From the IMG/VR virus record IMGVR_UViG_3300034062_001126, positions 1-35,716 of that record: DNA of 35,716 nt. One strand, 5' to 3'. The stretch comes from a virus. Below the pieces are notes generated by a model, which did no database searches, was not told the DNA's origin, and saw only the letters and a list, made by a program, of their open reading frames with translations. Positions within the stretch are counted from its first letter, which is position 1, and each line of letters begins with the position of its first letter. A program made the position numbers and the translations under genes. Below are positions 12,006-13,538 of this stretch, piece by piece.

Positions 12006-12914
12006 ATGGCTATTTCACGCGCACAACTACTTAAAGAACTCCTTCCTGGTCTGAACGCTCTGTTCGGTATGGAATATGCACGCTACGGCGAAGAGCATAA
12101 GGAGATTTATGAGACCGAAACCTCCGAGCGTTCGTTTGAAGAGGAAACCAAACTGTCTGGCTTCTCCGCCGCACCGGTGAAGAACGAAGGCAGTGCGATT
12201 GCCTACGATAACGCGCAAGAGGCCTGGACGGCTCGCTATACGCACGAGACTATTGCTCTTGGTTTCTCGCTGACAGAAGAGGCGATTGAGGACAACCTCT
12301 ATGACACCCTTTCTTCGCGTTATACCAAGGCTCTGGCTCGCGCTATGGCCTACACCAAGCAGGTTAAGGCTGCTGCTATCCTCAACAACGGGTTTGACTC
12401 CAGCTACGCAGGTGGTGACGGCAAGCCTTTGTTTGATACCCAGCACCCCCTGGTTTCTGGTGGCGTTAACTCCAACGAGCCTGCTACCCCGGCTGACCTG
12501 AACGAGACTTCTCTTGAAGCCGCCGTTATTCAGATCGCCGCGTGGACGGATGAGCGTGGTCTCCTGATCGCTGCTCGCCCCCGCAAGCTTATTATTCCTC
12601 CGTCATTGCAGTTCGTTGCAACCCGCCTGTTGGACACTGAACTTCGTCCGGGTACGGCTGATAACGACATCAATGCTCTGAAGAATAATGGCGCGATCCC
12701 TGAGGGTTACGCTATTAACCACTGGCTGACGGACAGCGACGCTTGGTTCCTGACCACTGATGTGCCTAACGGTATGAAGCACTTTGTTCGTACCCCGCTT
12801 GCACAGTCAATGGATGGAGACTTCGACACGGGCAACGTTCGTTACAAGGCTCGTGAGCGTTACAGCTTCGGCTGGTCCGATCCGCTTGGTATGTTCGGTT
12901 CGCCCGGCGCTTGA
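12006..12914 (+). CDS. Major capsid protein (HK97 fold, Mu gpT-like)
   Basis: A 302-aa protein with the look of the Mu gpT-type capsid family: MAISRAQLLKELLPGLNALF N-arm, E-loop region around YETETSERSFEEETKLSGFS, then QEAWTARYTHETIALGFSLT, a central GDGKPLFDTQHPLVSGG motif, PRKLIIPPSLQFVATRLLDT and the closing KARERYSFGWSDPLGMFGSP. This forms the icosahedral shell. AAGGAGA precedes the start by 9 nt. It is the last gene before an intrinsic terminator (12927-12950), consistent with very high expression of the capsid message being limited there. No N-terminal delta domain is evident, in line with the separate scaffold gene upstream. Confidence 0.92.
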   Translation: MAISRAQLLKELLPGLNALFGMEYARYGEEHKEIYETETSERSFEEETKLSGFSAAPVKNEGSAIAYDNAQEAWTARYTHETIALGFSLTEEAIEDNLYDTLSSRYTKALARAMAYTKQVKAAAILNNGFDSSYAGGDGKPLFDTQHPLVSGGVNSNEPATPADLNETSLEAAVIQIAAWTDERGLLIAARPRKLIIPPSLQFVATRLLDTELRPGTADNDINALKNNGAIPEGYAINHWLTDSDAWFLTTDVPNGMKHFVRTPLAQSMDGDFDTGNVRYKARERYSFGWSDPLGMFGSPGA

Positions 12915-12926
12915 TGATGTAAAGAA

Positions 12927-12950
12927 GGGGGGTTGCAAAACCCCCCTTTT
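12927..12950 (+). terminator. Intrinsic terminator after the capsid gene
   Basis: GGGGGGTT (12927-12934), loop GCAA, AACCCCCC (12939-12946), then TTTT. Stem of 8 bp with 6 G-C pairs followed by a T-run; 12 nt past the capsid stop. Confidence 0.9.
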
Positions 12951-12960
12951 GTTGTATGCT
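12933..12960 (+). promoter_or_regulatory. Candidate promoter overlapping the terminator
   Basis: TTGCAA (12933-12938, in the terminator loop) and TATGCT (12955-12960) are 16 nt apart. The -10 box is identical to that of the strong rightward promoter at 2881-2909. It would restart transcription near 12967 and give the next gene an 80-nt leader. Confidence 0.4.
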
Positions 12961-12980
12961 GTCTTTAGTCTAGGAATTTA

Positions 12981-13037
12981 CTTGCATCGACTGGCCTAGC
13001 AGACTTTAGTAGAGACGATGCAAGGATGTGCTACTAA
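12981..13037 (+). promoter_or_regulatory. Predicted H-type pseudoknot in the leader of the next gene
   Basis: Stem 1: CTTGCATCG (12981-12989) pairs perfectly with CGATGCAAG (13016-13024), 9 bp. Stem 2: TTAGTAG (13006-13012), inside the stem-1 loop, pairs perfectly with CTACTAA (13031-13037), 7 bp, beyond stem 1. Loops are 16, 3 and 6 nt. The second stem ends 3 nt before the GAGG ribosome site of the gene at 13050, so folding could affect its translation. It may be a cis-regulatory RNA. Confidence 0.6.
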
Positions 13038-13049
13038 CACGAGGAAAAT

Positions 13050-13538
13050 ATGAGCGTACGCCCATCTACCACCCAGTCTATTTGGCGCTCGGGTGCTGAC
13101 TCCACACGTCAAGCCTATTGCGGTTCTATGGTTATGACGGCCCAATTTCACATTGCCGATGTTGGTCCTGCTTCAACTACCAATGTCAAAGTATCTTCCG
13201 CTTCTGGTGCTCCTGACCTGATTCTGCCTGCTGGTGCTGTTGTTATGTCGGTTGTTGTTAGCGCCGTCACCAACGCCACTGGTACGTTCGATCTTGGCTG
13301 GGCTACTACTTCAGCCTCTGCGTCAGATACTGACGGACTTGTTGACGGTTACACCAGTGCTGTTGGCACTGTGACGGTTGGTACTGCTACGACTGCCGGT
13401 AACGATCTTGGCCTGGTTATGGACGCTGATGAGAACGTATACATCACCGTAACTGACGGATCTTCTGGCGGCGGCACGGCTTCTGGTTATATCGTATACT
13501 ACGTTACTGATCCGCTGGTCGGCCAACAGTCCGTTTAA
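13050..13538 (+). CDS. Virion surface-type beta protein, 162 aa
   Basis: The protein begins MSVRPSTTQSIWRSGADSTR and is rich in Thr, Ser, Gly and Val with repeated beta-strand patterns (PAGAVVMSVVVSAVTNATGT; DENVYITVTDGSSGGGTASG; YIVYYVTDPLVGQQSV). No signal peptide or enzymatic motif is visible. This composition and its place right after the capsid gene suggest a head decoration or fibre-base protein. It is the first gene of a new transcription unit behind the terminator and its ribosome site GAGG abuts the predicted pseudoknot, so its expression may be specially controlled. Confidence 0.75.
   Translation: MSVRPSTTQSIWRSGADSTRQAYCGSMVMTAQFHIADVGPASTTNVKVSSASGAPDLILPAGAVVMSVVVSAVTNATGTFDLGWATTSASASDTDGLVDGYTSAVGTVTVGTATTAGNDLGLVMDADENVYITVTDGSSGGGTASGYIVYYVTDPLVGQQSV

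Follow-up and report, generated by a model that had tools for sequence, protein, structure and literature searches.

A putative double-pseudoknot leader of the cement gene in freshwater and marine phages

Pseudoknots close to the ribosome site are found in several translational operators, including those of T4 gene 32, the E. coli S4 alpha-operon and the S15 leaders. preQ1 and SAM-II are translational riboswitches with H-type pseudoknots, and pseudoknots beside the Shine-Dalgarno (SD) sequence are typical of translational riboswitches. Mu-gpT-DE was described as an element lying downstream of gpT, with no function known for it; in Rfam (RF03012) it is typed 'Gene; sRNA', and its consensus ends in GGAG and AUG. 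Mu-gpT-DE is also listed among the RNAs in which base pairs that the database structure lacks are supported by covariation (PMC7657543).

The leader RNA analyzed here lies in a stretch of viral DNA, referred to as the window, which corresponds to positions 1 to 35,716 of IMG/VR record IMGVR_UViG_3300034062_001126 (35,716 nucleotides). Like the T4 gene 32, S4 and S15 operators, the window leader has a pseudoknot that lies near the initiation site or overlaps with it; however, its topology is different, and there is no Rfam model or sequence match between them. Like in preQ1 and SAM-II, the 3' strand of a pseudoknot adjoins the SD; different from them, the window leader has no Rfam match and a structural gene is located downstream. 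Mu-gpT-DE shares the place of the window leader, both of them following a Mu gpT-like capsid gene and ending at the SD and start codon of the next gene.

The capsid protein of the window matches PF25209 (1.8e-15), PF10124 (5e-11) and PHROG 371, major head protein. The next gene starts with the ATG at 13050. In phage DSL-LC04, the gene at the same place is annotated as cement protein, and the window protein gave weak profile matches to the cement proteins 7eel_H and 7dn2. Its best structure match is also 7eel_H, the Pam1 cement protein; as the AlphaFold model is weak (pLDDT 60.8), this match is supportive in nature. The coordinates of all features are listed in Table 1.

Table 1. Features of the capsid-cement region of the window.
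Feature	Positions	Strand	Evidence
Major capsid gene, 302 aa, Phage_capsid_4 / Mu gpT-like	12006..12914	+	Pfam, PHROG
Intrinsic-terminator-like hairpin GAAGGGGGGTT-GCAA-AACCCCCCTTTT and U-tract	12924..12950	+	Letters; hairpin also in capsid-anchored relatives
Putative -35 box TTGCAA, overlapping the terminator loop	12933..12938	+	TTG in terminator loop, 18/61 capsid-anchored loci
Putative -10 box TATGCT, spacer 16	12955..12960	+	-10 enrichment 7-11 nt before H1, freshwater relatives
H1 5' strand CTAGG, pairs with 12995-12999	12970..12974	+	Descriptor, covariation
H2 5' strand CTTGCATCG, pairs with 13016-13024	12981..12989	+	Descriptor, covariation
H4 5' strand CTG, pairs with 13000-13002	12991..12993	+	Descriptor, covariation
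H1 3' strand CCTAG	12995..12999	+	Pairs with 12970-12974
H4 3' strand CAG	13000..13002	+	Pairs with 12991-12993
Probable 2-bp mini-helix, 5' side CT	13004..13005	+	With AG 13013-13014; pair counts, 166 leaders
H3 5' strand TTAGTAG	13006..13012	+	Pairs with 13031-13037
Probable mini-helix, 3' side AG	13013..13014	+	With CT 13004-13005
H2 3' strand CGATGCAAG	13016..13024	+	Pairs with 12981-12989
H3 3' strand CTACTAA, ends 3 nt before SD	13031..13037	+	Pairs with 13006-13012
SD GAGG	13041..13044	+	SD-H3 distance in 147 leaders
Cement (decoration) protein gene, 162 aa	13050..13538	+	Annotation in relative, weak profile and structure matches

The initial annotation proposed an intrinsic terminator after the capsid gene, followed by an overlapping promoter, TTGCAA-16-TATGCT; all of these elements are present in the letters of the window. 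The putative terminator is a G+C-rich hairpin followed by a U-tract. The TTG of the -35 box, which had been placed in the terminator loop, begins in the last part of the hairpin's 5' arm and runs into the loop. A TTG in the terminator loop recurs in 18 of 61 capsid-anchored loci, the window included. The predicted transcription start is at about 12967. Paired sigma-70 hexamers 16-18 nt apart are found in the window and kept in its freshwater relatives, but not in many marine ones ('freshwater' and 'marine' are working labels taken from named relatives and leader types, not from sample records). The promoter gains further backing from the position of the -10-like hexamer (at least 4/6 matches), which lies 8-9 nt before H1 in 33% and 49% of the capsid-anchored freshwater loci; at every other offset, the value is 21% or lower. 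Several loci with a gene inserted after the capsid carry a near-consensus promoter directly before the leader, such as TTGACA-17-TATAAA; most of the loci with a gene between terminator and leader have TTCG as the terminator loop instead. Many marine relatives have the RNA but no recognisable -10 box near H1, so the RNA need not begin the transcript there. In the marine loci collected by core pattern (see below), a hairpin with a poor U-tract was mostly observed a few nt before H1, again without a -10 box.

As depicted in Table 1, the leader contains four helices, H1 (5 bp), H2 (9 bp), H4 (3 bp) and H3 (7 bp). The strands follow each other in the order H1 5', H2 5', H4 5', H1 3', H4 3', H3 5', H2 3', H3 3', SD and ATG; the H1 3' strand sits inside the H4 loop. 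H2 and H3 of the window are the 9-bp and 7-bp stems already noticed in the initial annotation; both are perfect, they cross each other, and GAGG follows after a gap of 3 nt. The two stems had been taken for an H-type pseudoknot. Although both of them exist, H1, H4 and a probable mini-helix were missed, and the actual RNA is predicted to be a double pseudoknot, with four helices and, probably, one 2-bp mini-helix. Among 166 leaders, the inner pair of the mini-helix is C-G in 158 and T-A in 3; the second pair is G.A in 111, T-A in 24, G-C in 22 and A-T in 2. The double pseudoknot begins at about +4 and ends 3 nt before the ribosome site, thereby filling the 5' UTR. Taken by itself, the nested fold of this region is only mildly unusual (z -1.87 versus shuffles), and a generic consensus scan of the window listed neither the terminator nor the promoter. 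Therefore, the support comes from relatives rather than from the single sequence.

Using the capsid protein, we fetched 80 IMG/VR loci, in which the region ahead of the next gene repeatedly showed one arrangement that includes the two further helices. The descriptor finds the full geometry in 63 of 84 capsid-anchored sequences, and one covariance model built on H2 and H4 only matches most of the remaining loci, except truncated contigs and a few others; these and all other counts are of sequences from related phages, not of independent events. Since an unconstrained descriptor search produced artefacts in about one quarter of the loci, the geometry was constrained. Only anchored hits were counted, because whole-locus scans give chance descriptor scores of 38-45; shuffle, swap and slide controls are given since descriptor hits are selected for pairing. 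As an independent entry, a DNA pattern for the H4/H1 core retrieved 120 IMG/VR places. With a descriptor score of at least 38, the full structure is present in 108 of these 120 loci, compared to 0 of 480 sequences in which the core was kept and the flanks were shuffled, which bears out the earlier remark that such crossing helices are unlikely by chance.

Covariation in relatives had been set as the test of the two noted stems, and both of them pass it in alignment, swap and shuffle controls. When 54 leaders were aligned by MAFFT without structural information, 85.1% of the cells pair; shuffling the partners lowers this value to 61.7%, and sliding them to 30-44%. The covariation score is 0.567 against 0.190, and both-sided changes occur in 9/9 H2 pairs and 2/3 H4 pairs. 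Compensatory changes are seen in all helices, including CTG/CAG, CAG/CTG, CCG/CGG and CCA/TGG for H4, and CTAGG/CCTAG, CTGGG/CCCAG, CCGGG/CCCGG and CCAAG/CTTGG for H1. H3 was tested separately, because MAFFT partly misaligns it: in 60 loci found by H4 and H2 alone, an H3 run of at least 6 occurs in 60/60 (swap control, 20%) and an H1 run of at least 5 in 57/60 (95%; swap control, 23%). With the placement chosen on Watson-Crick pairs only, the H2 cells contain 38 G-U but 4 A-C pairs; this excess indicates that the plus-strand RNA is under selection. The fold and its strand, like the cement-gene link, the SD adjacency and the freshwater promoter, are thus shown by comparison, at the level of sequence.

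The RNA does lie between the capsid gene and the next gene, as noted initially, but the gene it serves is the cement gene downstream rather than the capsid gene. Wherever the downstream ORF of a structured hit could be read, it is cement-type; the ORFs fall into blastp groups of 117, 25, 17 and 2 proteins. The upstream ORF is of the capsid group in 145 of 156 cases and an HNH-type gene in 10 of 156 (a few of the upstream ORFs are other-frame readings). The HNH-type (homing-endonuclease-like) genes, about 200 aa in size, were observed between the capsid terminator and the leader in ten loci. There, the RNA is at least about 700 nt away from the capsid gene and still directly before the cement gene. 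As the HNH-type genes split the RNA from the capsid gene and never from the cement gene, the RNA is the leader of the latter. Separate blastp groups of cement protein stand behind one conserved leader; identity goes down to 17% within one group, and profile matches between groups are weak. This suggests that the cement protein was replaced or diverged very fast at a fixed site.

The leader fold is present in the cultured Pelagibacter phage HTVC023P. Pelagibacter phage HTVC027P and its relatives carry one divergent form, in which H1 is CTATAC/GTATAG and H3 is CCTAG/CTAGG; the topology is kept, 94.9% of the cells are paired (25-48% when slid), and most members have an H4 of just 2 bp. Other leaders compared with named phages by blastn gave no match, and in bacterial genomes the structure was found in 0 of 119 pattern matches. 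Using cement proteins, independent of any RNA, we fetched another 80 loci. Among these, the descriptor recognises the double-pseudoknot fold, including its divergent forms, in 25; some additional loci have divergent-form leaders that it missed, 27 have a second kind of leader, and most others have a third type.

The second kind of cement leader is Mu-gpT-DE: 18 of 20 tested loci are above the RF03012 threshold, including those of the Roseobacter phages CRP-901 and CRP-902. RF03012 was seen in 19 of our loci. The initial annotation recognised no known riboswitch class in the pseudoknot; this holds for the fold, although in sister phages its place is taken by the published Mu-gpT-DE. The riboswitch, leader and ribozyme models of Rfam 15 match neither the window nor other loci of the same leader type. 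Searched at gathering threshold and at E up to 10, Rfam gave no meaningful match for the window, and RF03012 itself had no match in the leader region at E up to 10; conversely, our model of the double-pseudoknot class (R1) finds no Mu-gpT-DE leaders.

Like the double-pseudoknot class, Mu-gpT-DE has one hairpin inside an outer helix and one helix at the SD. In both, the outer helix is followed by A and the inner hairpin by AC, and GA stands ahead of the closing strand of the outer helix. These junction bases occur in 23/23 Mu-gpT-DE-type leaders and in 138/144 double-pseudoknot leaders, the latter agreement being partly by construction because the descriptor required A plus C/T after H4. The outer helix of Mu-gpT-DE, CCUG/CAGG, overlaps the SD, whereas H2 of the window is CTTGCATCG/CGATGCAAG and the SD follows H3. 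Different from Mu-gpT-DE, the double-pseudoknot class has a variable 9-bp H2 and two additional pseudoknots formed by H1 and H3, and it is H3 that reaches the SD. Common descent is supported by these likenesses but not proven, as the models do not find each other; the window fold, absent from Rfam, looks like a pseudoknotted variant related to Mu-gpT-DE. Given that GGAG and AUG stand at the end of the RF03012 consensus, Mu-gpT-DE is likely to be a cement gene leader too, and its annotation should probably be changed to cis-regulatory leader.

The third kind of cement leader was noticed in 16 loci. It has one 4-bp helix around the SD, with compensatory CTAT/ATAG, CAAC/GTTG and CTAC/GTAG versions counted by script; RNAalifold found no consensus on the MAFFT alignment of this type.

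In all 147 leaders measured, the first base of the SD lies between -5 and +5 nt relative to the H3 end; the SD overlaps the last H3 bases in about 60% and adjoins H3 in about 40%. The distance from the H3 end to the ATG is mostly 9-14 nt, and the 30S footprint covers roughly the 20 nt ahead of the start codon. H3 is thus inside the expected footprint, and the folded leader should limit or time cement initiation; the H3 3' strand would have to be displaced or accommodated during the process. A helix is present on or around the SD in all three leader types, which makes gating of initiation the best-supported reading. Taken together, we infer, with a probability of about 0.6, that the element acts in cis as the 5' leader of the cement gene and limits or times translation initiation. 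Since about 40% of the leaders have the SD beside H3 rather than partly inside it, an effect that promotes initiation, and not one that limits it, is also conceivable.

The gating could proceed as follows. In freshwater phages, transcription would start about 2-4 nt before H1, so that the RNA fills the whole 5' UTR. H2 carries H4, the loop of which pairs with the upstream strand through H1; the next short loop pairs, through H3, with the strand touching or overlapping the SD. The terminator and the overlapping promoter may uncouple cement expression from the capsid transcript, and the leader would set the level of the following genes. We tentatively extend this to a distinct and widespread double-pseudoknot RNA class that may sense one conserved phage or host factor and time cement production in abundant freshwater and pelagic phages; equally tentative is the accompanying picture, in which the two hairpin loops of one small junction are locked by upstream and downstream strands.

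One specific form of the gating explanation is a protein-bound operator, comparable to those of T4 gp32 or of ribosomal proteins. Here, the double pseudoknot would be bound by a protein of phage or host origin (capsid, ribosomal or another conserved factor) that represses or permits cement translation. The compact pseudoknot at the ribosome site and the nearly invariant junction bases (A, AC and GA) are in line with it, and we consider it possible but doubtful. The same fold precedes separate blastp groups of cement protein, which would require the partner to be some conserved factor. Binding by the cement protein itself is unlikely, as the cement proteins behind this RNA differ strongly from each other. 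It is rather unlikely that the leader is instead an mRNA stabiliser, whose 5' fold guards the short cement mRNA against decay that depends on the 5' end and whose SD adjacency merely follows from a short leader. The transcription start set just before H1 by the freshwater promoter would suit such a role; however, the fold is kept in relatives without the adjacent -10 box, and the distance between leader and SD varies less than a role in stability would call for.

A small-molecule riboswitch appears improbable. A pseudoknot adjoining the SD and the lack of any matching Rfam class would be compatible with one, but conserved unpaired bases are few, and the fold is found only before a structural gene, never before metabolic genes, with no case among the bacterial pattern matches. 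The 'Gene; sRNA' type of RF03012 would point to one trans-acting small RNA made from the promoter; we give this very little credence, as GGAG and AUG close this very consensus, gene insertions upstream leave the leader in place before the cement gene, and there is no terminator between leader and cement gene in the window. Least probable of all are a DNA-level site (protein-binding palindromes or a recombination site) and a self-cleaving ribozyme, which the repeated complementary blocks and the nearby insertion of HNH-type genes could have suggested, but which were dropped because G-U pairs far exceed A-C pairs, with one RNA strand selected, and topology and core match no Rfam ribozyme.

With gating of cement initiation as the preferred reading, the window leader adds one covariation-supported RNA fold that is missing from Rfam. 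The fold precedes the cement gene in many freshwater and marine phages, with the base pairs kept and the letters changed. The so far unexplained Mu-gpT-DE gains a testable role, namely that of a cement gene leader, rather than of a small RNA or a capsid 3' element. The replacement of RNA type and of cement protein at one fixed site would provide natural replicates for studying how phages balance capsid and cement synthesis.
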